Assembly (NCBI GenBank): GCA_030583665.1
Contig: CP129469.1
Location: 2,161,043-2,225,042 of the forward strand
DNA from: Candidatus Jettenia sp. AMX2
GTDB taxonomy: Bacteria; Planctomycetota; Brocadiia; Brocadiales; Brocadiaceae
Length of the DNA stretch: 64,000 nucleotides
Direction of reading: 5' to 3'
The notes below the pieces were generated by a model that did not search any database, was not told the DNA's origin, and saw nothing but the letters and a program-made list of their open reading frames with translations. Below, piece by piece: positions 14,095 to 41,207 of the stretch; the first letter of the stretch is position 1, and every line of letters begins with the position of its first letter. A program made the translations under genes and the position numbers.

Positions 14095-17000
14095 ATGTTC
14101 CGTTCAATCAAGAACAAATTAATTTTCCTCCTTCTGATTGCAGTACTGACACCACTTTTGGTAATGCGGCTCATTGCATATCCTACGGCACAAAAAGCTT
14201 TTCAGGAAACAACTCTCAATAATCTACAATTAGCTGGCTCTAAAAGGGTATTCCAAATAAACGACTGGTTAAAAAAACTGAAAGATGATGCCGGGCATAT
14301 TGCACATAACACGTTTGTAGCAGCCGCAACCAGTATGATAAATGCAGATAAGAACACGAATGCCCAATATGTAGCCAGGATACCCTATACTGAAAATTTT
14401 CAGGGGTTCATTATTGGCGATTTGTCCGGTATCATCAGAATATCCACTGATGATAGTCTCATAGGGCAGGATTTAACTGAATATGAAGGTTTTCGCCGTG
14501 CCATCAAGGGGGTAGTTTCTGTTACCGAAGAACCGTTTCTGGCAATGCACATTTCATACGATCTGGTACATCCAATAATGGGATCATCCGTTTATATTGC
14601 TTCACCTGTAAGAACTACCCGGGGTACCATATCGGGAGTTATCATGCTTAAAATCGATTTATCCTCACTTACCCACGAATACCGGGAAATACCGTACAGC
14701 GACAGGTATGACACCTATATTGTTAACCGGCAGGGAATAATGGTCCATCATTTTAATCATGAGAAGCAGCTAATAGCCGCAAAGAACCTGAAAGAGCAAA
14801 TGGAGCAAAAATTGATCGTTGTTGAACCTCACACTTCAAAATTCACGAAGAGTGTGGATTCCTCCCTGAAAGGAATCAACGGGTCTGACATAGATGGTTA
14901 CATCAATCATGAAGGAGAAAAAGTACTGGGTGCGTGGTTCTGGATTCCGGAACTTGAATGGGGGGTTATTACAGAAATCAGTGTCAACAGGGTATCGCTG
15001 GCAATGAACGACTTAAAGAATCCTATTGCAAAGATACTCTCTTATCTGACTGTTTCAGGGGTAATTTTAGCATTAACCGGTATTGTCTTTGCCTTTTTCA
15101 TTGGTGAGAAAATTGCCAATCCTATTGTGGGGTTGATAACAGCAACGCGCAAAATGTCTGCCGGAGACTTATCACAGCGGGTGGTAATAAAGACCCATGA
15201 TGAACTGCAGGAATTGGTCGATGCATTCAATGTGATGGCTGAATCTGTACAGGAAAAAACTTCGAAACTTCAGGAAACGACGAATTTCCTCAACAACATT
15301 CTGATCAGCTCTACGGAACATTCGATTATTGCAAGCGACCTCCAGGGAACCATACTTGCATTCAATGAAGGTGCAAAAAGGATGTTTGGGTATGAGCCTG
15401 AGGAATTAATCAATAAATCAGGCATTGAAATAGTATATACAAAAAGCGATGTCGCATCGGGTAAGGTTCAGGAAATACTGGAAACAACACTCTTAAACGG
15501 AAGATATAAACATGAAGTGCAACTGGTACGTAAAAACGGAGAAGTATTCACCGGATACAGCACATTTACCACAAGACAGTCCAGCGATGAAAAACCTATC
15601 GGTTTTGTTATGATCGTAAGAGATATCACCGAGCAAAAGCAATTGGAACAAATACTTCATAATTATACCGTACAACTGGAAAAAATCCTTGAAGAAAGAA
15701 CTCAGAAATTAAGGATTTCGGAAGAGAAATACCGAAGGCTTTTTGAATCGAGTAAAGACGTTGTTTTCTTTTGCGATATCGAATGTCAGTTCGTAGACAT
15801 CAATCAGGCAGCGGTAGATTTGTTCGGTTATGAATCGAAAAGCGAAATTTTAAAACTGAACCTCATTCAACATCTGTTTTTCAGCATATCAGAAGGAAAA
15901 GCAACAAGGGGAATCGTATATAAAAACGGCTTTATTAAGGATTATGAGGTAGAGTTGAAGAAGAAGGACGGTTCCAAAATCTTTTGCCTCATGACAAGTA
16001 ATCTTCGGAGGGATGAACGGAATAGTGTTATTGGTTACGAAGGAATCATTATTGATCAAACGGAACGAAAGCGGATCGAACAGGAAAAGGACATCATGAA
16101 CAACATCAACAAGATCCTGGCATCCAAGCTTGATTTTCGGGAGGTATTTAAATCTCTCAGTGCAGAGCTGAATAAAGTTGTCGACTTTGACCGTATGAGT
16201 ATAGCCCTTCTTAACGAAAAGAGAGAGGAGTTTTTAACCTATGCGGTATCAAAAGACTATGGGATTTCCAGGCTTGAAGAAGGCGTGCAGTACTCTAAAC
16301 ACGGAACCCTGGCCGGAAAGGTTGTAGAAAATGGCAAGGTCTATATGGTTAACGATACTTCCCGGGGGCCTTTCTTAACCGACCCCATTCTGTATCATGA
16401 AGGCATTAAGTCCCGATCGGCCTTCCCCTTACTATCCAAAGGAGAAATTATCGGCAGTGTCAATTTCGGAAGCAGAAAAGCTCATAATTTTTCAGAAAAT
16501 CAATTTGATTTTATTAATAAAATTACACCGCAACTGGCTATTGCAATTGACAATACACGGTTATTTGATAAAATCAAAGAGTCTGAAGAAAAGTACAGAA
16601 ATCTTGTTGAAGATATTGAAGATGTAATCTTCAGGCTGGATAAAACAGGAAGGTATTTATTTCTCAACAGCGCACTGAAAAATGTAACCGGATACCGTCC
16701 TCAGGAATTTTATGATAACCCCTCCATTGTCAAGGAAATAATTAATAAGAACGATATGCCATTGGTTAAAGAAACCATGCAAAAAGTTCTTAACGGCAAT
16801 TTAAAGGTTTCAAAAGATCTGGAGTATAGAATTTTTTGTAAAAACGGGGAAGAACTCTGGGTATCTCAAAACACTTATCCTATCAAGGACAAGAAAGCAA
16901 AGATTATAGGTTTAGAAGGAATTATCCGGGATATTACCGACAGGAAAAGAATTGAAGAACAAATAAGGCGTTCTGAAAGATTGGCCTCAATTGGAGAATT

Positions 17001-17676
17001 AGCCGCCTCGATTGCCCACGAGATACGCAATCCGCTTGGTGCCATATCCAATTCTGTATGCATGCTGAAAAGAGATCTGGCCCTGAACGGCGACGATCAA
17101 AAATTATTTGATATGGTTGTCGAAGAAACCGACCGTCTCAATAGTATAATTACCAGCTTTCTTACCTTTGCACATCCTGCAGAGTATCATTTTATGAAAA
17201 GTAATATTATTGATATTATAGACGAAACGTTGTTCTTGTTGGAGCAGGATGCAAGGTTTCATGACGAAATTAAGATTATCAGATCTTATAACGGCACGAT
17301 CCCTAAAATTTATGCAGACAGAAATTGGATCAGAAAGGTTTTCTGGAATTTACTTATTAACTCGGTCGACGCTATGCCTGATGGCGGGAAAATCCTCATT
17401 CGTGTCAAGAGAATAAGGACGCCAGACCACGACGAAATCGAGATCATCGTCGCTGATCAAGGCAATGGAATCCCTCCTGAAAATATAAGAAAGATATTTG
17501 AACCCTTCTTCACGACAAAAAAATCAAAGGGGACAGGGTTGGGGCTTTCTATTGTCCATCGTATCGTAGATAATCATGGTGGCACAATAGACGTAAAGAG
17601 CGCCCAGGGTAAAGGAACGGTATTTACCATCCGGTTGCCGGTAAAAAATAAACAAGTAAAAACCCTTTCAGTATAG
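14095..17676 (+). CDS. Membrane sensor histidine kinase (dCache-like, HAMP, three PAS, GAF, HisKA, HATPase)
   Basis: The 1193 residues divide as follows: a first membrane helix at about 9-29, an extracytoplasmic sensor of about 280 residues (dCache-like), a second helix at about 314-338, HAMP to about 392, PAS at 400-520 and 543-663, GAF at 670-825, and a third PAS at 829-950. The kinase core has SIAHEIRNPLG with phosphoacceptor His975, then NLLINSVDAM, DQGNGI, FFTTK and GTGLGLSIV. The core resembles NtrB/ZraS-type kinases, and the NtrC-type regulator begins 13 bases after its stop, so the two form one phosphorelay. The extracytoplasmic signal cannot be told from sequence. Multiple PAS/GAF units suggest more than one input, possibly redox or a small ligand. 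Confidence 0.93.
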   Translation: MFRSIKNKLIFLLLIAVLTPLLVMRLIAYPTAQKAFQETTLNNLQLAGSKRVFQINDWLKKLKDDAGHIAHNTFVAAATSMINADKNTNAQYVARIPYTENFQGFIIGDLSGIIRISTDDSLIGQDLTEYEGFRRAIKGVVSVTEEPFLAMHISYDLVHPIMGSSVYIASPVRTTRGTISGVIMLKIDLSSLTHEYREIPYSDRYDTYIVNRQGIMVHHFNHEKQLIAAKNLKEQMEQKLIVVEPHTSKFTKSVDSSLKGINGSDIDGYINHEGEKVLGAWFWIPELEWGVITEISVNRVSLAMNDLKNPIAKILSYLTVSGVILALTGIVFAFFIGEKIANPIVGLITATRKMSAGDLSQRVVIKTHDELQELVDAFNVMAESVQEKTSKLQETTNFLNNILISSTEHSIIASDLQGTILAFNEGAKRMFGYEPEELINKSGIEIVYTKSDVASGKVQEILETTLLNGRYKHEVQLVRKNGEVFTGYSTFTTRQSSDEKPIGFVMIVRDITEQKQLEQILHNYTVQLEKILEERTQKLRISEEKYRRLFESSKDVVFFCDIECQFVDINQAAVDLFGYESKSEILKLNLIQHLFFSISEGKATRGIVYKNGFIKDYEVELKKKDGSKIFCLMTSNLRRDERNSVIGYEGIIIDQTERKRIEQEKDIMNNINKILASKLDFREVFKSLSAELNKVVDFDRMSIALLNEKREEFLTYAVSKDYGISRLEEGVQYSKHGTLAGKVVENGKVYMVNDTSRGPFLTDPILYHEGIKSRSAFPLLSKGEIIGSVNFGSRKAHNFSENQFDFINKITPQLAIAIDNTRLFDKIKESEEKYRNLVEDIEDVIFRLDKTGRYLFLNSALKNVTGYRPQEFYDNPSIVKEIINKNDMPLVKETMQKVLNGNLKVSKDLEYRIFCKNGEELWVSQNTYPIKDKKAKIIGLEGIIRDITDRKRIEEQIRRSERLASIGELAASIAHEIRNPLGAISNSVCMLKRDLALNGDDQKLFDMVVEETDRLNSIITSFLTFAHPAEYHFMKSNIIDIIDETLFLLEQDARFHDEIKIIRSYNGTIPKIYADRNWIRKVFWNLLINSVDAMPDGGKILIRVKRIRTPDHDEIEIIVADQGNGIPPENIRKIFEPFFTTKKSKGTGLGLSIVHRIVDNHGGTIDVKSAQGKGTVFTIRLPVKNKQVKTLSV

Positions 17677-17689
17677 GTTTACTCCAGCT

Positions 17690-19072
17690 ATGTTTACTAT
17701 TCTGGTTGTTGAAGATCAAAAAAACATGCGTGAATCCCTGGTTATCGCATTTAAGAGAGCCGGATATGCCGTTGATAGTGCTGACAATGGCGAAAATGCT
17801 ATAGAATTACAAAAGATACATTCCTATGATTTAGCCGTTGTTGATTTGAAGATGGAAACCATGGACGGGATTGAGGTTCTTATGCATATCAAGGATATTA
17901 ATCCTGCAACGAAAGTTGTTGTTATGACTGCATTTGGCACGATCGATAGCGCAATTCAGGCAATGAGAAAGGGAGCTTATGATTATATTACCAAACCTTT
18001 TCAACTTGCCGATATGCTTTCCGTAGTGAAACGGGCATTAGAGAGAAGCTTTTTATCTGGCAGACTTATTATTCCACGGGAGGAAACGAAAAAGGAATAT
18101 AAGTTTGATGGTATTATGGGCAGCTCACCCGCCATGAGATATATATTCAATATTCTTACGGAAATAACCAATAACGAAAGTACCGTTCTCATAACCGGAG
18201 AAAGCGGGACCGGAAAGGAACTCGTTGCACGTGCTATTCATAACAACAGCGGCAGGAACAACAAACCTTTTGTGGCAGTAAATTGTGGAGCATTACCTGA
18301 AAATCTGCAGGAAAGCGAAATGTTTGGCCATGCTATGGGTTCTTTTACCGGTGCCGTAAAAGATAAAAAAGGAATATTTTTAGAAGCACAGGGGGGTACA
18401 TTATTTTTAGATGAAATTGGTGAGACATCCCTTTCAACCCAGGTAAAACTCCTCCGGTTTCTGCAAAATGGTGAAATACGAAAAATCGGGGACAATAAAC
18501 CCGTTTACCTCAATGTTCGTGTTATCGTTGCGACAAATAAAGATCTTAACGAAGCAACAAAAAACGGTTCTTTTAGAAAAGACTTATTTTACCGGCTAAA
18601 TGTTATCAGAATCCACTTACCGTCGCTTCGTGAGAGAAAAGAAGATATTCCCGTTCTGGCAAATTATTTCATAAACAAATTTTCCGGCAGGTTAAAGAAA
18701 AGACCGCTGGAATTATCCGGAGATGTGCTGAACCTTCTCTTACATTATCCATGGCCTGGCAATATCAGAGAATTAGAAAATGTTATTGAAAGGTCCGTTA
18801 CCCTGGCAAAGGGTAATCTGATTACGGCAACTGATCTGGCATTGCAAAACAGTTCTGCAGAAGATACCGTGACTGGTATGATGGAGACGGGCGGAATTCG
18901 TGCTGCTTTGGCGCAACAGGAAAGAAAAACCATAATTGAATCCCTGCGAAAACACGCCGGGAACCGCAAACAGGCGGCAAATAATCTGGGAATCTCTACA
19001 ACTACCTTGTGGAGAAAAATGAGGGAATATCAAATTATTCCCAAAACAAGCTATAATATAGAAAATACCTGA
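17690..19072 (+). CDS. NtrC-family sigma-54-dependent response regulator
   Basis: The receiver domain spans about residues 1-115 with acidic pocket Glu8-Asp9 and phospho-acceptor Asp52 (VVDLKME). A sigma-54 AAA+ domain follows, with Walker A GESGTGKELVARAIH, the sigma-contact loop GSFTGA (GAFTGA with Ala to Ser), GTLFLDEIGE and an arginine-finger region FYRLNVIRIHLP. A Fis-type helix-turn-helix closes it (NRKQAANNLGISTTTLWRKM). It should be phosphorylated by the kinase at 14095 and activate RpoN promoters. Two -24/-12-like sites lie 5-9 kb downstream before amt1 and the dihaem gene, but nothing in the sequence proves they are its targets. moaA starts 15 bases after the stop. Confidence 0.96.
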   Translation: MFTILVVEDQKNMRESLVIAFKRAGYAVDSADNGENAIELQKIHSYDLAVVDLKMETMDGIEVLMHIKDINPATKVVVMTAFGTIDSAIQAMRKGAYDYITKPFQLADMLSVVKRALERSFLSGRLIIPREETKKEYKFDGIMGSSPAMRYIFNILTEITNNESTVLITGESGTGKELVARAIHNNSGRNNKPFVAVNCGALPENLQESEMFGHAMGSFTGAVKDKKGIFLEAQGGTLFLDEIGETSLSTQVKLLRFLQNGEIRKIGDNKPVYLNVRVIVATNKDLNEATKNGSFRKDLFYRLNVIRIHLPSLRERKEDIPVLANYFINKFSGRLKKRPLELSGDVLNLLLHYPWPGNIRELENVIERSVTLAKGNLITATDLALQNSSAEDTVTGMMETGGIRAALAQQERKTIIESLRKHAGNRKQAANNLGISTTTLWRKMREYQIIPKTSYNIENT

Positions 19073-22663: not shown

Positions 22664-22678
22664 GGGAACGATAATTGC
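22664..22678 (+). promoter_or_regulatory. Candidate sigma-54 (-24/-12) promoter of amt1
   Basis: GGGAACG-N4-TTGC compares well with the RpoN consensus TGGCACG-N4-TTGC. The essential GG (22665-22666) and GC (22677-22678) have the exact spacing. The predicted start lies near 22690, about 175 bases before amt1. Two positions of the -24 box deviate. Confidence 0.5.
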
Positions 22679-22864: not shown

Positions 22865-24433
22865 ATGAAATGTGTTTCAGGTAAAATGAGGTTTAATATA
22901 TTATTATTGTTAATAACCTTGGGGATATTTACGGTAGAAACGGGAATTGTTCATGCTTCGGATCCTGTCGGTGACCGTACGTATTCAGATAGCATTGAAG
23001 GATTAAAATATGCTATAAATTTCACATGGACATTAACAGCTGCCTTTCTGGTATTCATTATGCAGGCTGGATTTACTTTTTTAGGCGGATTCCTGAGAGC
23101 AAAAAACATGCTCAGCTATATGTCCCATTGTTTTATTGATTCTACACTTGGGGCAATTGTTTTTTTCCTTTTTGGATTTGCCCTCATGTATGGCGGTTCC
23201 CAACTGGCTCCCGGACTTGAATACGGTAATGTCTTGATTGGCTGGGGTGGTTTCCTTCTTCATGGGAAAGCATATGACGTTCAAACAATCATGTTTTGGC
23301 TTTTTCAAATGATGTTTGTCACAAAAACGGTTTCAATTGTCGCCGGTGGTGTAGCAGAAAGGCTTAAGTTTACACCGTATATTATTTATAGCTTTCTGGT
23401 AGCAGGTATAATTTATCCGATTTTTGGAAATTGGGTATGGGGAGGTGGTTGGTTAAGCACCCTGCCATTCGGAGGTGGTGTAAAAGACTTTGCCGGCTGC
23501 GCTACTGTCCATACTGTAGGGGGCGTGCTGGCATTCGTCGGGGCATGGGCATTGGGGCCGAGAAATGGTAAATATAATCCCGATGGTACACCCAACGCTA
23601 TTCCAGGCCACAACCTTGTCTATGTAGTAATAGGAACCTTCATTCTTGCTTTCGGCTGGTTTGGTTTTAATGCCGGAAGCACCCTGGCAGCAACTGATTT
23701 ACGTATCTCTGTTATTGCAACCAATACCTTTATAGCTGCTGCAGCAGGTGCAGTTGTTATGATCCTTTTTACCAAACTTAATATGGGTGTTATTGATTTA
23801 GCTTTTATTTGCAACGGCGCGCTCGGTGGGCTGGTTGCTATTACAGCACCCTGCGCTTATGTATCACCATGGGCAGCCGCAGTGATTGGACTTCTCGGCG
23901 GACTGGTAATGAGGGGTGCATTCTGGCTGGTTGAGGCCAAATTCAGGGTTGATGACCCGCTCGGTGCAGTAGCTGTACATGCAGCCAATGGTATATGGGG
24001 TATGATTGCTGTGGGAATCTTTGCAGACGGTACTTACGGTGGTGTATATGGCTTAATTACCGGTTCTGGCTGGCAATTAATCTCACAAATCATAGGCACT
24101 ATAGTAGCTATTGCATGGGCATTCGCCTGGGGAGTTGCCATATTTTTTGGTTTAAAATATACGATAGGGATTAGAGTATCGGATGTTGTTGAACATGAAG
24201 GAGTTGATGTCCACATCCACGGATCTTCTTGTTATCCTCTGGAAACCAAATTTATTGATCCTCTTTTGGAGAAAGAAGAACCGGCAGAACTCTTAAAAGA
24301 GGAAGAACAGATATCTTTGCTTGAGGAAGCATTAAGCAAGGATGCCTTTAGGGAAAAAATCTATTCGGACAAACTTGGCCGGTGGGTATACGCAGTACGC
24401 AAACAAGAGGATACAAAAAGCAAGAAAAGGTAA
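22865..24433 (+). CDS. amt: Ammonium transporter 1 with long C-terminal extension
   Basis: A signal-peptide-like start (residues 1-32, ending VHA-SDP) precedes the 11 membrane segments of the Amt/MEP/Rh fold. The twin pore histidines are in ATVHTVGG and AVHAANGIWG. FGWFGFNAGSTLAATD and GALGGLVAITAPCAYV are Amt signatures. The cytoplasmic tail contains VDVHIHGSSCY and then extends by about 68 charged residues (about 455-522) rich in Glu, Lys and Leu, probably helical. The tail is where GlnK docks and gates Amt, and the extension is absent from the two other Amt proteins nearby. Ammonium or ammonia uptake or sensing is the expected role. GAGGAG precedes ATG at 22865. glnK1 follows 58 bases downstream. 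Confidence 0.96.
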   Translation: MKCVSGKMRFNILLLLITLGIFTVETGIVHASDPVGDRTYSDSIEGLKYAINFTWTLTAAFLVFIMQAGFTFLGGFLRAKNMLSYMSHCFIDSTLGAIVFFLFGFALMYGGSQLAPGLEYGNVLIGWGGFLLHGKAYDVQTIMFWLFQMMFVTKTVSIVAGGVAERLKFTPYIIYSFLVAGIIYPIFGNWVWGGGWLSTLPFGGGVKDFAGCATVHTVGGVLAFVGAWALGPRNGKYNPDGTPNAIPGHNLVYVVIGTFILAFGWFGFNAGSTLAATDLRISVIATNTFIAAAAGAVVMILFTKLNMGVIDLAFICNGALGGLVAITAPCAYVSPWAAAVIGLLGGLVMRGAFWLVEAKFRVDDPLGAVAVHAANGIWGMIAVGIFADGTYGGVYGLITGSGWQLISQIIGTIVAIAWAFAWGVAIFFGLKYTIGIRVSDVVEHEGVDVHIHGSSCYPLETKFIDPLLEKEEPAELLKEEEQISLLEEALSKDAFREKIYSDKLGRWVYAVRKQEDTKSKKR

Positions 24434-24491
24434 TACATAACTCAGTGTTTTAATATCATTAGATCGTATTCTACGGATGGAGGTTTTTTTC

Positions 24492-24830
24492 ATGAAAAAA
24501 ATCGAAGCAATAATCAGGCCTGAAAAATTTAATATCGTCAGGGATGCCTTAACAGAACTGGGTTATCCGGGAATGACTGTTACCGAAGTAAAGGGTCATG
24601 GAAGCCAGAAGGGTATCAGCGAAGTATGGCGTGGCAGAAGATATCGCATTGACCTGATCTCGAAGATCAAGATTGAAATTGTTGCAAATGAAGATGAGGT
24701 AGAAAGGATTGTAAATACCATCATAAACGAATCCCAGACCGGGAGTATCGGAGACGGGAAGATATTTATCTTTACGGTAGATAATGTTTATCGGATCCGC
24801 ACAAAAGAAACCGGAAAAACGGCAATTTAA
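24492..24830 (+). CDS. glnK: PII signal protein GlnK 1 (Tyr51 present)
   Basis: This 112-residue PII protein reads MKKIEAIIRPEKFNIVRDAL and has the T-loop KGHGSQKGISEVWRGRRY, where Tyr51 is the site that GlnD uridylylates. The B-loop TGSIGDGKIFIF binds ATP/ADP and 2-oxoglutarate. Residue 46 is Trp, where many enteric PII proteins have Tyr. ATG at 24492 is chosen because GGAGG stands 9 bases upstream; the frame is open from 24477. PII proteins block Amt channels when ammonium is plentiful, and this gene lies between amt1 and amt2, so it probably serves one of them. No glnD or glnA lies in the window. Confidence 0.96.
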   Translation: MKKIEAIIRPEKFNIVRDALTELGYPGMTVTEVKGHGSQKGISEVWRGRRYRIDLISKIKIEIVANEDEVERIVNTIINESQTGSIGDGKIFIFTVDNVYRIRTKETGKTAI

Positions 24831-24898: not shown

Positions 24899-26275
24899 AT
24901 GAAAACAAAATTAATCCGATATTATTTTTGGTTCATTGTGTTTACCGGATTCTGTATCCTGTACGATAAAAATGTGTTTGCCGGTGACCCAAGTGGTATT
25001 GCTACCTACACGGACAGCATATCAGGTCTAAAATTCTCAGTAAACTTTGCATGGACGTTACTCTGTGCATTTTTAGTTTTTAATATGCAGGCAGGGTTTG
25101 CATTCCTCGGTGCAGGATTTCTTCAGAAAAAAAATACCTTGAATTTTATGGCGATGAGTTTTGCAGATTTTTGTGTGGGAGCACTTGTATTCTGGCTATT
25201 TGGCTTTGCATTAATGTTTGGTGGCTCAAATCTGGCACCTGGACTTTCCAGTGGAAATAAATTTATCGGCTATAGTGGATTTTTATTGGGAGGCAACGCC
25301 TATGATGTAACCACTTCAGCACTTTGGATGTTTCAAATGATGTTTGCCGCCTCTGCCTGCACCATTGTAGCAGGCACAGTTGCAGAAAGGGTTAGATTTC
25401 ATGTCCACATTGTTTACAGTATTTTCTTATGCGGCATACTTTATCCTCTTTTCGGACATTGGATGTGGGGCGAGGGATGGCTGGAATCACTGCCTTTTGG
25501 CGTTGGGGCAAGGGACTTTGCTGGTTCTGGCGTAGTTCACGGAATGGGTGGCTTAGTAGCATTTATTGCTGCATGGGTTGTTGGGCCCCGTTTTGGTAAA
25601 TACAATCCTGACGGGAGTCCTAATGTAATTCACGGCCATAATGTACTCTTTATTGTTGTGGGTACCCTTACCCTCATGTTTGGATGGTTTGGTTTTAATG
25701 CGGGCAGTACACTTGCAGTCACAGAACTCAGGGTAGCAGTTGTAGGGGTAAATACTTTTCTGTCTGCAACGGCGGGAGCTGTCACCCTCTTGTACTTTTC
25801 TTATTATAAAACCGGAAAGTCGGATGTTATCATGATGTGCAATGGGGCCTTGGCAGGATGTGTGGCAATCACGGCATCCGGTGCTTATGTACCCCATTGG
25901 GCAGCAATCATCATCGGGATACTTGCAAGTTTAATTACAAAAAGTTCACTCTATTTCATAGAAAGCAAGTTAAGAATTGACGACCCTGTTGGTGCCATAT
26001 CGGTGCATGGAGCAAATGGAATATGGGGATTGCTTTCGGTTGGAATTTTTTCTGACGGAACTTATGGTGGTGTAAAAGGTTTAATCGCAGGATCCGCATG
26101 GCAATTACTAGCCCAATTTATTGCCTGTATCACTCTCATATCCTGGTGTTTTTTTGCCGGGTATGCTTTTTTTTCTCTTCTCAGGTGTTTTGTTAAATTA
26201 AGGGTTCCCGTAAACGATGAACGCTCCGGCCTGGATATTTATGAACATGGTATAAATTGTTATCCGGGGTCATGA
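24899..26275 (+). CDS. amt: Ammonium transporter 2
   Basis: The 458-residue protein starts with a signal-like segment (MKTKLIRYYFWFIVFTGFC, ending near VFA-GDP) and shows the Amt fold with twin His in GVVHGMGGL and SVHGANGIWG, FGWFGFNAGSTLAVTELR and GALAGCVAITASGAYV. It resembles amt1 closely over the membrane part but has the short normal tail ending DIYEHGINCYPGS. The frame opens at 24854, but ATG 24899 gives the signal peptide. The start has no clear ribosome site and lies directly behind a strong stem-loop, so translation may be controlled. It is the last gene of the amt1-glnK1-amt2 set. Confidence 0.95.
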   Translation: MKTKLIRYYFWFIVFTGFCILYDKNVFAGDPSGIATYTDSISGLKFSVNFAWTLLCAFLVFNMQAGFAFLGAGFLQKKNTLNFMAMSFADFCVGALVFWLFGFALMFGGSNLAPGLSSGNKFIGYSGFLLGGNAYDVTTSALWMFQMMFAASACTIVAGTVAERVRFHVHIVYSIFLCGILYPLFGHWMWGEGWLESLPFGVGARDFAGSGVVHGMGGLVAFIAAWVVGPRFGKYNPDGSPNVIHGHNVLFIVVGTLTLMFGWFGFNAGSTLAVTELRVAVVGVNTFLSATAGAVTLLYFSYYKTGKSDVIMMCNGALAGCVAITASGAYVPHWAAIIIGILASLITKSSLYFIESKLRIDDPVGAISVHGANGIWGLLSVGIFSDGTYGGVKGLIAGSAWQLLAQFIACITLISWCFFAGYAFFSLLRCFVKLRVPVNDERSGLDIYEHGINCYPGS

Positions 26276-26718: not shown

Positions 26719-26733
26719 TGGCACGACAAATGC
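26719..26733 (+). promoter_or_regulatory. Candidate sigma-54 (-24/-12) promoter of the dihaem cytochrome - amt3 - glnK2 set
   Basis: TGGCACG-ACAA-ATGC matches the RpoN consensus TGGCACG-N4-TTGC at all positions but one, with exact GG/GC spacing (GG 26720-26721, GC 26732-26733). The start would fall near 26745, about 90 bases before the cytochrome gene. Confidence 0.65.
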
Positions 26734-26836: not shown

Positions 26837-27820
26837 ATGATTAAAAAAAATAAAATATATTTTTACTGTTCGATACTTTTTATTATAAATTGTTTATTGT
26901 CTTTTTCCGCATTTTCACAGAATTACATAATAAACGGTATCCCGGAACGGGACTACACGAAAACAGAAATCAGGGATAGCATCGTACGAAAAGAATCCTT
27001 GGTTCTTAAAGATAACCGAGTGTACATTCAAATACTGCTTGACAGAGGAGCGAAGAACATAACTGATCATACAAGATACAAAGAAATGTTTTATTCGCTT
27101 CCCGAACAAATTTTTTATGATGAGGCAACGAACCGCATTTTATATGATACAGGAACCGAAGAAATTGAAGTGGGAAAGGTCAAAAGTTTCTTAGGTCTTA
27201 TGCCCTCTATTGTTTTAAGTGAAGGCGTAATAATAGTAAGTTCTCCTAACGATGCCAAATTATTAATCTCATCCTTTAATAACAACGGCACATTTCCCTT
27301 ATCCATTATCCATTCAGAAGAAAGTATGGAAATAACTTTGAGTAGAAAATGCGGGCAATGCCATATACTCGATTACCTTTTTTCGCATAAAAAATGGACA
27401 GAAGAAGACATAATACATGTGTTTAACAGGTTACAAATGGAAAAAGGAGAGCAATTTACTGCAGATGAGCAGGCAATCATTGATCTCTTTAAACAGTATC
27501 AGAGGGGAGAAATAGACAAGGAGAAACTTTCCGAGTTCAAAACATTAAAAGAAATGGAAAAAAAAGATGTCAATACCTTTACAGAAGATATCTATACAAA
27601 TACCTGTGTGCCTTGCCATAACCCATCGGCAATTTCAGATATACCATCATTATATACCAAACGCAGATGCAAAAGCATAGCCGGCTGGATAAAAGAAAAA
27701 GAGCCATTACTCTTTCTGCAGAAAGACCTTGATAGCCTGGCTGGCTATTTATGGGAAATAAAACTGAGACCGCATAACCATTCAATCTGTTTCCGCGAGA
27801 AAGGAGGTGATATTCAGTAA
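26837..27820 (+). CDS. Periplasmic dihaem c-type cytochrome of unknown family, inside the ammonium region
   Basis: The 327-residue product has a signal peptide (MIKKNKIYFYCSILFIINCL, cleaved near FSA-FSQ) and two haem c motifs, CGQCH at residues 172-176 and CVPCH at 257-261. Residues 30-165 have mixed strand and helix character and match no family I recognise. A charged helical region of about 80 residues joins the two haem sites. It would sit outside the cytoplasmic membrane or in the anammoxosome lumen. It lies between amt2 and amt3, and a sigma-54-like promoter stands upstream, so it seems to be controlled with ammonium uptake. ATG at 26837 has AGGAAC upstream; the open frame from 26750 is not used. 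Its redox partner is unknown. Confidence 0.8.
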   Translation: MIKKNKIYFYCSILFIINCLLSFSAFSQNYIINGIPERDYTKTEIRDSIVRKESLVLKDNRVYIQILLDRGAKNITDHTRYKEMFYSLPEQIFYDEATNRILYDTGTEEIEVGKVKSFLGLMPSIVLSEGVIIVSSPNDAKLLISSFNNNGTFPLSIIHSEESMEITLSRKCGQCHILDYLFSHKKWTEEDIIHVFNRLQMEKGEQFTADEQAIIDLFKQYQRGEIDKEKLSEFKTLKEMEKKDVNTFTEDIYTNTCVPCHNPSAISDIPSLYTKRRCKSIAGWIKEKEPLLFLQKDLDSLAGYLWEIKLRPHNHSICFREKGGDIQ

Positions 27821-27940: not shown

Positions 27941-29260
27941 ATGAGAAGAGGAGTCCTCGTGGGCGTTTCATCGATCTTTGTATTATCGATGTTTGCGCTA
28001 TTTGTTTCTACTGCTATGGCAGGTGATGTACCGGAAATTGATACAGGGGATAATGCGTGGATGCTTATGTCTGCAGCATTGGTACTTTTTATGACACCCG
28101 GACTTGCCCTGTTTTATGGAGGTATGGTAAGGTCAAAAAATATGGTAAACACCATATGGATGAGCTTCATTTGTATGTGCATAGCAACCATGACGTGGGT
28201 ACTTTGGGGGTATAGCCTGGCATTCGCTCCGGGCAACTGGTTTATTGGGGGTCTCCAGTGGTGCGGATTAGGTCTGGGGGCCGTTGGACAAACGCCACTC
28301 GAAGGGTCAACAATTCCGCATTTAACATTTATGGTATTTCAGGGCATGTTTGTTATTATTACCACTGCAATTATGAGTGGTGCTTTCGTAGAGCGCTTTA
28401 AATTTAATGCATGGATGTTACTGATACTTTTGTGGACAACCATAGTTTACCCGCCAATAGCATATTGGGTATGGGCAGATGGCTGGCTGGGAGCCATCGG
28501 AAAATTGGATTTTGCAGGTGGTACTGTAGTTCACATATGTTCTGGCGCCTCAGCCCTGGCAATCCTTCTTGTTGTGGGGAAGCGAAAAGAAGTCAGACCT
28601 CCACATAATTTACCACTCATGATGCTGGGAACCGGTATGCTATGGTTTGGATGGTTCGGTTTCAACGCAGGGAGTGCAGGAGCAGCGGATGGTCTTGCTG
28701 CAAGCGCATTTGTTGTTACGAATATCTCCGCAGCTGCAGGTGGACTTGCATGGTCTATTTTAGAGTGGATATACCATAAGAAACCTACCATACTTGGCGC
28801 TTGTTCAGGTGTAGTTGCAGGTTTGGTCGGTATTACACCATGCGCAGGATATGTAGGACCCATGGCATCAATTTTTGTAGGCGTTATTGCTGGAATAATA
28901 TGTTTCTATTGCGTAACAAAACTGAAACCAATCATTGGTTACGATGATGCATTGGATGTATTAGGTATACATGCGTATGGTGGAACCTGGGGAGGATTGG
29001 CAGTCGGTATCTTTGCAAGCACATCGGTAAATCCTGGTGGCGCTGATGGTGCAATTTATGGAAATTTCACCCAATTGGGAATACAAGCAATTGGCGTTCT
29101 GGTTGGATGGGCATGGGCATTTGGAATTACCTTGCCGCTGGCTCTCTTTGTTAATTGGGTGATCGGCTTACGGCCCAGTGAAGCTGATGAAACTATCGGT
29201 ATGGACCAAACCCAGCATAAAGAAATTAGTTATCATATTTTTGAGGCAGAACAGACTTAA
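27941..29260 (+). CDS. amt: Ammonium transporter 3 (classical AmtB type)
   Basis: A signal peptide (ending AMA-GDV) precedes a textbook AmtB body: GDNAWMLMSAALVLFMTPGLALF, given here only by its position 34-56, then MVRSKNM, the twin His in VVHICSGASAL and GIHAYGGTWGG, WFGWFGFNAGSAG, and the tail GLRPSEADETIGMD. At 439 residues it is shorter than amt1 and closer to enteric AmtB than amt1 and amt2 are. It should conduct ammonium and be gated by GlnK. GAAAGGAGATAGCT directly before ATG 27941 is a strong ribosome site. The glnK2 gene follows 93 bases downstream. Confidence 0.97.
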   Translation: MRRGVLVGVSSIFVLSMFALFVSTAMAGDVPEIDTGDNAWMLMSAALVLFMTPGLALFYGGMVRSKNMVNTIWMSFICMCIATMTWVLWGYSLAFAPGNWFIGGLQWCGLGLGAVGQTPLEGSTIPHLTFMVFQGMFVIITTAIMSGAFVERFKFNAWMLLILLWTTIVYPPIAYWVWADGWLGAIGKLDFAGGTVVHICSGASALAILLVVGKRKEVRPPHNLPLMMLGTGMLWFGWFGFNAGSAGAADGLAASAFVVTNISAAAGGLAWSILEWIYHKKPTILGACSGVVAGLVGITPCAGYVGPMASIFVGVIAGIICFYCVTKLKPIIGYDDALDVLGIHAYGGTWGGLAVGIFASTSVNPGGADGAIYGNFTQLGIQAIGVLVGWAWAFGITLPLALFVNWVIGLRPSEADETIGMDQTQHKEISYHIFEAEQT

Positions 29261-29320: not shown

Positions 29321-29692
<372 letters not shown>

Positions 29693-39270: not shown

Positions 39271-39738
39271 ATGAAACCACAAAAAACCCTGAATATCACG
39301 GCCATTATTCTGTATAGCAGCTTCGGTGTCTTTATTGGCCTGAGTTCCTACACATTTTATTATGCGCAAGGGTCATCCTATCTTTCAAACGATCCCGCTG
39401 CCTGTGTCAATTGTCATATTATGCGCGAACAGTACGATGGCTGGCAAAAAGCCAGTCATCATGCAGTTGCGACATGCAATGATTGCCATATACCGCATGA
39501 ACCGGTATTAAAATATGTAACAAAGCTAAAAAACGGTTTCTTACATTCAAAAAGTTTTACCTTCCAGGATTTTCATGAACCGGTGCGCATTCACCCTGGC
39601 AACCGCACTATCCTGCAGAAAAACTGTCTTTTTTGCCATGGAGAATTTGTAAGCCAGATTGCTACCCTTCCCGGAAATGATCAGAAAATGCTCAATTGTA
39701 TCCACTGCCACAGAACGGTTGGTCACGGCCCGGGATAA
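39271..39738 (+). CDS. nrfH: Tetrahaem membrane cytochrome NrfH (NapC/NirT family)
   Basis: One membrane helix (about residues 9-28) anchors a small periplasmic part with four haem c motifs: CVNCH (45-49), CNDCH (68-72), CLFCH (118-122) and CIHCH (142-146). The first reads CxxCHxM, with Met51 placed as the unusual axial ligand known in NrfH. The 155-residue length is typical. NrfH takes electrons from menaquinol and passes them to NrfA, whose gene follows 41 bases downstream. It begins 9 bases after a VWA (BatB-like) gene. Confidence 0.95.
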   Translation: MKPQKTLNITAIILYSSFGVFIGLSSYTFYYAQGSSYLSNDPAACVNCHIMREQYDGWQKASHHAVATCNDCHIPHEPVLKYVTKLKNGFLHSKSFTFQDFHEPVRIHPGNRTILQKNCLFCHGEFVSQIATLPGNDQKMLNCIHCHRTVGHGPG

Positions 39739-39779
39739 TCTATGGTTCATACTGATTTAAGGAAAGATTAGGAGGAACA

Positions 39780-41207
39780 ATGGAAAACGGAAACCAGAGA
39801 AACCGGAAAGTTATTTACCTTCTCCTTGTTGCCGTAGTTACAACCGCAACGGTAGGGGTTGTATTGCTTCTTGAAAATATTAGCCGGCGGAAAAGAGAGG
39901 CGCAAGAACGTGTATTTCGTGTTGTGGAAATAACCGAATACACAATCGATCCGGCTATCTGGGGGAAAAATTTCCCGCGACAATATGATGGATATCTCCG
40001 GACAGTCGATATTGAACGGACCAGGCATGGCGGAAGTGAAGCCTTTGATAAGCTGGAAGAAACGCCTGTCTGGCGTACCATCTTTAAAGGATATGCCTTC
40101 AGTGTGGATTATCGCGAGGAAAGAGGCCATGCCTACATGCTGTCGGATCAGGATATAACAGAACGTATCAAAATAGTTCAGCAACCGGGAGCGTGCCTGC
40201 ACTGCCACTCATCTGTTCTTCCTGCCTATCTGGAGGCAGCAAAAAATGCCGGTATGACTGAAGATGATGCCCGCCGGCAGGAACAGATCATGAAAGGCTT
40301 TGAAATCGTTTGTGCCATGCCCTATCAGGAAGCCCGCAGGATGGTTTCCCACCCTGTATCCTGCGTAGATTGTCATGATCCGGAAACGATACAAATACGG
40401 GTAACCCGCCCCGGCTTTCTCAACGCAATTCAGGCACTGGCCAAATCTGATTACCCGCTACCACACTTACCGAGCATTGAGCGATGGCGTAAAAACGGAC
40501 GAAAAGGAGAGTATGACGTTAATACCATGGCAACACGGCAGGAAATGCGGTCATTCGCCTGCGGCCAGTGCCACGTGGAATACTATTTTCAAGGTGAAGG
40601 CAAACTTCTGGTTTATCCGTGGCAGAAGGGACTGGGGATGGAAGAGATTGAAAACTATTATAACGAAACATCCTTTCGTGATTGGATTCACGAAGACACC
40701 GGTGCACCAGTACTAAAAGCACAACATCCTGAATTTGAGATGTGGAGTCAGGGAATTCATGCACGCAGCGGTGTTGCATGTGCAGACTGCCATATGCCTT
40801 ATAAGCGCGAAGGTGCAATCAAAATCAGCGATCACCATGTACGGAGTCCGCTGCTGAACATAGCCAATGCATGTCAAACATGTCATCACTATAGCGAAAA
40901 GGAACTTAAGGAACGTGCAGAAACGATTCAGAACCGTACCAAAGCATTAATGAACCGTGCAGAAGAAGCAGTCATCGGCCTTATTCTGGATTTGCAAAAG
41001 GCAAGGGAGTTTGGCATTCCTGACGGACAACTGAAAACAGCGCAGGATCTGCACCGGAAAGCACAATGGCGGCTGGATTTCGTTGCAGCAGAAAATTCAA
41101 TGGGTTTCCATGCCCCGCAGGAAGCTGCACGTATTCTTGGAGAGGCGATTGACTATGCACGGCAAGGCCAAATCGAGGTAACGAAACTGCCGGTTACTGC
41201 ACAATGA
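39780..41207 (+). CDS. nrfA: Pentahaem cytochrome c nitrite reductase NrfA with CxxCH at haem 1
   Basis: Five haem c motifs are read: CLHCH (139-143), CVDCH, CGQCH, CADCH and CQTCH. Sequence around them matches NrfA: QCHVEYYF (calcium and catalytic Tyr region), KAQHPEFEMW with the active-site His, and HHVRSPL. The enzyme reduces nitrite to ammonium with six electrons. In classical NrfA the catalytic haem 1 is held by CxxCK, with Lys as axial ligand; here the fifth residue is His143. NrfA with CxxCH is known from some lineages, so this is a variant and not a loss. A membrane helix at about 13-30 serves as signal or anchor. AGGAGGAACA precedes the start. In an anammox cell it could make ammonium from nitrite. 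Confidence 0.95.
   Translation: MENGNQRNRKVIYLLLVAVVTTATVGVVLLLENISRRKREAQERVFRVVEITEYTIDPAIWGKNFPRQYDGYLRTVDIERTRHGGSEAFDKLEETPVWRTIFKGYAFSVDYREERGHAYMLSDQDITERIKIVQQPGACLHCHSSVLPAYLEAAKNAGMTEDDARRQEQIMKGFEIVCAMPYQEARRMVSHPVSCVDCHDPETIQIRVTRPGFLNAIQALAKSDYPLPHLPSIERWRKNGRKGEYDVNTMATRQEMRSFACGQCHVEYYFQGEGKLLVYPWQKGLGMEEIENYYNETSFRDWIHEDTGAPVLKAQHPEFEMWSQGIHARSGVACADCHMPYKREGAIKISDHHVRSPLLNIANACQTCHHYSEKELKERAETIQNRTKALMNRAEEAVIGLILDLQKAREFGIPDGQLKTAQDLHRKAQWRLDFVAAENSMGFHAPQEAARILGEAIDYARQGQIEVTKLPVTAQ

Follow-up and report, generated by a model that had tools for sequence, protein, structure and literature searches.

Described Amt systems and the Jettenia locus

PII proteins control ammonium transporters (Amt) from the cytoplasmic side, and we know of no haem protein that acts on an Amt from the non-cytoplasmic side; limited searches of open papers likewise found none acting from that face. 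The well-described AmtB-GlnK pair resembles the locus reported here in having an amt gene followed by glnK, sigma-54/NtrC-type regulation and a response to ammonium limitation, but our locus adds a predicted exported haem protein (CYT) on the side of the membrane opposite PII. A second precedent is Ks-Amt5 (kuste3690), an Amt-histidine kinase fusion of Kuenenia and thus, like the putative CYT-AmtC pair, an anammox Amt with a signalling partner, although CYT is a separate exported haem protein and not a cytoplasmic kinase. The nearest relative of the gene cluster itself is amt_1-nrp_1-amt_2-nrp_2-amt_3 of K. stuttgartiensis (kustc1009-1015), which is probably one operon and whose amt_1 to amt_3 genes rise together with the PII genes under ammonium limitation (PMC7438415). 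Its amtA-glnK-amtB part is orthologous to ours, whereas its amt_3 belongs to a sister clade (AmtC2) and is not accompanied by a cytochrome.

We analysed a 64,000-nucleotide stretch (the window) of the single-contig 3.46 Mb genome of Candidatus Jettenia sp. AMX2, an anammox bacterium of the Brocadiales. The window carries the order amtA-glnK-amtB-CYT-amtC-glnK on the + strand. Two Amt genes, amtA (amt1, 22865..24433; PF00909) and amtB (amt2, 24899..26275; PF00909, E ≤ 1e-113), enclose the first PII gene (glnK, 24489..24830; PF00543, 6e-32) and are followed by CYT (26837..27820), which encodes a predicted exported dihaem cytochrome of 327 amino acids. After a gap of 120 bp comes amtC (amt3, 27941..29260), assigned by our Amt tree to a CYT-linked subfamily, and then the second glnK (29354..29692), a PII gene 88% identical to the first PII group across relatives. 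With 417.6 bits against a cut-off of 23.2 (5.6e-125), AmtC is a member of the Amt/Mep/Rh family PF00909, and it retains both pore histidines, its segments VHICSG and GIHAYGG matching the His segments of Af-Amt1 in an alignment.

CYT combines a predicted all-beta domain with a divergent dihaem domain

The initial annotation described a 327-residue protein with a signal peptide and the motifs CGQCH and CVPCH between the second and third amt genes, and the open reading frame, which opens with ATG and recurs in relatives, agrees with this. The gene is real, since orthologues at 41-65% identity are present in 35 other genomes (two of them fragments or contig-end cuts). The hydrophobic N-terminus of CYT ends ...SFSAFS/QNYIINGI, which we read as a signal peptide of residues 1-27 (26837..26917, +) cleaved near FS/QN; residues 2-22 form a hydrophobic helix in the structure model, and an FSQN(Y/F) motif at the cleavage region is retained among relatives.

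Behind the signal peptide, residues 28-150 (26918..27286, +) make up a predicted all-beta domain (residues ~27-150 in the model, with pLDDT 86.5 and pTM 0.80), which is conserved at a mean column identity of 73% in 26 sequences. These residues have no match in Pfam, NCBIfam or PHROGs, as was anticipated by the suggestion that the N-terminal part fits no known family; a match to a family of unrelated role, named as an outcome that would refute the reading, did not turn up. Structure prediction, proposed at the same time as a check, returned a confident all-beta domain with no clear match in the PDB: fold searches that used either the whole CYT model or just the beta domain reached a best Z of 4.2 and Foldseek E ≥ 0.46. 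The matches at this top Z, the beta barrels of Cas12, SmpB and alpha-crystallin, do not rise above noise, so that the searches neither assign a fold to the domain nor exclude one. Weak N-terminal matches in two genomes (G057 and G008) lie inside unrelated proteins and were set aside.

The domain recurs on a transporter. At L134:3077-4873 (-), in genome G011 of family f3, a CYT-type beta domain (hhalign probability 96.2, E 2e-9; E 4e-5 in a single-sequence search) forms the N-terminal part of a Na+/H+ exchanger, whose transport part is recognised by PF00999 (1.3e-34) and whose N-terminus is lipoprotein-like. This single fusion suggests that the beta domain may be a module placed outside the membrane on transporters.

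The second half of CYT holds the two haem c motifs, CGQCH (residues 172-176; 27350..27364, +) and CVPCH (residues 257-261; 27605..27619, +), whose residues C172, C175, H176, C257, C260 and H261 are invariant in 28/28 CYT sequences. Neither motif is followed by an invariant methionine of the kind that serves as distal residue in class I cytochromes c (PF13442/PF00034): of the 28 sequences, 20 have Met199 and 24 have Met285, the latter being Ile in the window protein. His184, His194 and Cys278 are present in all 28 relatives, so far as we are aware form no part of the description of the quinohemoprotein amine dehydrogenase family, and make bis-His or His/Cys ligation of the haems possible. The structure model of this half is poor, pLDDT staying below 50 over most of it. 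Of 19 members, 18 match PF13442 at E ≤ 0.1 (best 2e-8) and 5 match the dihaem domain PF09098 (best 1e-6), while the window protein (E 0.004) stays below the curated cut-offs of both PF09098 (17.2 bits against 25.2) and TIGR03908 (14.2 against 274); PF09098 reaches 29 bits only in the distant copy at locus L072. These profile matches make the haem half a divergent dihaem domain of class-I type, whose nearest counterpart is found in quinohemoprotein amine dehydrogenase. In the alpha subunit of this enzyme (PF09098; PDB 1jmx) a class-I-like dihaem domain likewise carries two CXXCH motifs, but CYT lacks the enzyme's other domains and adds a separate N-terminal beta domain.

This weak similarity, and the fact that CYT adjoins ammonium transporters, could be taken to mean that CYT helps to oxidise ammonium or amines at the membrane, as the initial annotation had also proposed. 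We found nothing to sustain this part of the proposal and regard such a role as very improbable: the haem domain alone is shared (14 versus 274 bits for the amine dehydrogenase model), there are only two haems and no catalytic module, and the protein is missing from K. stuttgartiensis (G033) and from most genomes of Scalindua, both anammox bacteria.

A 247-aa protein (G000:C1:2688691-2689101 (-), L007) and similar ones match CYT residues 157-307 at E ~1e-3. We rejected a kinship, as they carry three haems in another context and share with CYT a generic haem repeat alone. The 247-aa protein is itself exported and occurs in several relatives, encoded beside hemC-like and DsbD-like genes.

CYT is kept in front of amtC while the surroundings change

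Orthologues of CYT were searched for in 62 Brocadiales genomes and found in 36 (window genome and fragments counted), with one further distant, truncated CYT-like copy in G060. The neighbourhood was surveyed over up to 20 kb around each orthologue, with window genes mapped by tblastn and three copies at contig ends (G007, G034 and G042) left out of the count. CYT immediately precedes a co-directional amtC in 31 of the 33 testable genomes (30 relatives and the window), the gap among relatives being 111-315 bp (median 169). The two remaining orthologues, in Scalindua sediminis (L061, 61% identity) and G061 (L069, 41%), do not adjoin an amt gene, so that AmtC is not indispensable for CYT to function or to be retained. 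Across 84,980 species genomes a pattern scan returned 27 loci, every one in Brocadiales, and a profile of the CYT N-terminus had no match outside this order among 392 Planctomycetota genomes.

Whether relatives keep the gene beside amt or carry it mostly elsewhere had been named as a check on the original reading, and the survey shows the former. The conserved placement across the order suggests a redox protein that works together with ammonium uptake, and the earlier proposal of such a tie is strongly supported by the linkage to one Amt subfamily. An exported two-haem gene kept in front of one Amt gene across Brocadiales has hitherto been undescribed; it is retained in Brocadia and Jettenia cultures, and its absence from the model species K. 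stuttgartiensis may explain why it escaped notice.

The linkage spans two bacterial families (f1 and f3) whose clusters otherwise differ. Family f3 (L063, L067) has the order ntrC-glnK-glnK-amtA-BBP2 porin-CYT-amtC, and K. hertensis (L062) and G032 (L064) carry AmtC2 plus, ~7 kb or more away, a CYT-amtC-glnK unit, so that the pair has been kept while its surroundings change. In these last two genomes a GAF/PAS histidine kinase and a response regulator are encoded directly behind the unit (L062:5302-7360 and L064:12608-14677); the kinase is thus a separate protein, in contrast to the fused kinase of Ks-Amt5.

The porin gene that immediately precedes CYT in family f3 would suggest the cell envelope as the compartment of CYT, whereas three of four K. 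stuttgartiensis Amts were assigned to the anammoxosome membrane by a computational study (PMC2881027). The porin gene also raises an alternative, in which CYT would partner the porin and not the Amt and would sense or assist the passage of nutrients across the outer membrane and envelope. The truncated copy in G060 (L072:4398-5051, 31% identity) would fit, as it sits between phoU and two OprP-type porin genes. Taken together the two contexts hint that CYT-like proteins accompany the uptake of nutrients through the envelope. A porin as the partner is nonetheless improbable, because family f1 has no porin gene beside CYT, amtC adjoins CYT in both families, and the L072 copy has half a beta domain and no in-frame signal peptide. 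The cluster around that copy is a phosphate uptake cluster, pstSCAB-phoU-OprP-OprP, with the CYT-like gene behind the phosphate ABC transporter.

CYT goes with one of two sister Amt clades

A tree of 114 Amt proteins separates the CYT-linked AmtC proteins from their sister clade AmtC2 (12 members, 98% SH-aLRT), of which 0/12 are encoded beside CYT. The closed 4.4 Mb genome G033, from the genus group of K. hertensis, has the order amtA-glnK-amtB-glnK-amtC2 without CYT; this is the order given for K. stuttgartiensis (PMC7438415), and it is from this order that we take G033 as that species. K. stuttgartiensis, so named, therefore lacks both CYT and the CYT-linked AmtC subfamily. Both genes are also missing from G001 and G017, a joint loss less telling than that of Kuenenia because the whole cluster is gone there, and the contig of G025 ends inside amtC, where CYT would come next.

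Sixteen positions are conserved within, yet differ between, CYT-linked and CYT-free AmtC proteins, and most of the discriminating residues are common to both CYT-linked families. Amt proteins have an N-out arrangement. On a hydropathy-derived topology that assumes it, 8 of the 16 positions fall in extracytoplasmic loops, compared with 40 of 178 conserved columns (Fisher p = 0.011), namely 97, 117, 121, 123 and 127 between TM2 and TM3 and 364, 373 and 375 between TM10 and TM11. Control comparisons (AmtA versus AmtB and two others) gave no loop excess (p 0.23, 0.23 and 0.51). The enrichment at the outer face of AmtC is suggestive of a contact with CYT but does not decide the matter.

A sigma-54-type site precedes CYT

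A sigma-54-type (-24/-12) site, TGGCACGACAAATGC (26719..26733, +), with one mismatch to TGGCACG-N4-TTGC, lies ~105 bp before the ATG of CYT, and another (22664..22678, +) lies upstream of amtA, where such a site is found ~200 bp before the gene in most Brocadiaceae. Over the whole window matches with at most two mismatches occur at chance level (13 versus 12.4 expected). Support for the site at 26719 comes from its position and from relatives: such a site precedes CYT in 15 of the 28 upstream regions from Brocadiaceae, each at p < 0.05 against dinucleotide shuffles, and over 32 loci a Wilcoxon test gave p = 1e-5, uncorrected for relatedness. What the initial annotation called a strong site is thus a good one that relatives back. 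The genome also encodes RpoN, so that both the -24/-12 element and its sigma factor are found and CYT has a predicted promoter of the sigma-54 regulon. By analogy with K. stuttgartiensis, CYT may rise with the amt cluster under ammonium limitation.

If regulation were the whole of the connection, CYT would be a cytochrome that carries electrons or handles NO, sharing only its regulation with ammonium uptake and needing no contact with AmtC; ammonium shortage would then leave surplus electrons and nitrite-derived NO for CYT to take up. Such a carrier is a serious possibility, though still one we hold to be doubtful. It agrees with the sigma-54-type regulation, with a class-I-type dihaem domain typical of electron-transfer proteins, with a possibly open haem site where no methionine ligand is invariant, and with the two genomes in which CYT has no amt neighbour. 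Co-regulation alone, however, fails to explain why the linkage is to one Amt subfamily but not to its sister clade, why CYT strictly precedes amtC, and why a second conserved domain recurs on a transporter.

CYT as a candidate partner of AmtC

We tentatively prefer, at a little short of an even chance, the reading that CYT is made when ammonium is limiting and partners AmtC on the extracytoplasmic side, with its beta domain docking on AmtC and its haems sensing or relaying redox state or NO. Ammonium limitation would, via RpoN and an NtrC-type activator, switch on CYT-amtC(-glnK) as a single transcription unit; the beta domain would bind AmtC from outside, docking at the loops TM2-3 and TM10-11; the two haems would sense or relay the redox state (or NO) of the compartment outside, and the resulting signal would adjust ammonium uptake or ammonium signalling. 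A partner of AmtC is favoured by the linkage in 31 of 33 genomes, the persistence of the pair in changing clusters, the joint loss in K. stuttgartiensis, AmtC2 without CYT, the loop enrichment, the exchanger fusion, the sigma-54 sites and the induction reported in PMC7438415, and weakened by the two orthologues without an amt neighbour, a loop statistic of 16 positions on a hydropathy-derived topology, a poorly modelled haem half and an antiporter fusion seen once. Among the two roles first suggested, sensor and oxidation component, that of sensor is the likelier.

A bolder version, which we consider rather unlikely, is that CYT, docked via its new beta domain on the outer face of a dedicated Amt trimer, responds to the redox or NO state of the compartment by gating transport or by making the Amt a sensor, so that the supply of ammonium is matched to the synthesis of hydrazine. 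Should a haem protein indeed act on an Amt from the non-cytoplasmic side, anammox bacteria would possess a direct link between redox state and the uptake of their own energy substrate, and there would be a reason for their multiple Amt paralogues.

Two further gene groups of the window deserve mention. A dCache/PAS/GAF histidine kinase and an NtrC-type sigma-54 activator are encoded at 14095-19072, ~4-9 kb upstream of amtA (3.8 kb at the nearest), and are possible regulators of the amt cluster. At 39271-41207 a NapC/NirT-type gene (NrfH-like, PF03264) adjoins a gene for a cytochrome c552 (NrfA-like, PF02335, 8e-128), a pair that probably encodes an ammonia-forming nitrite reductase.
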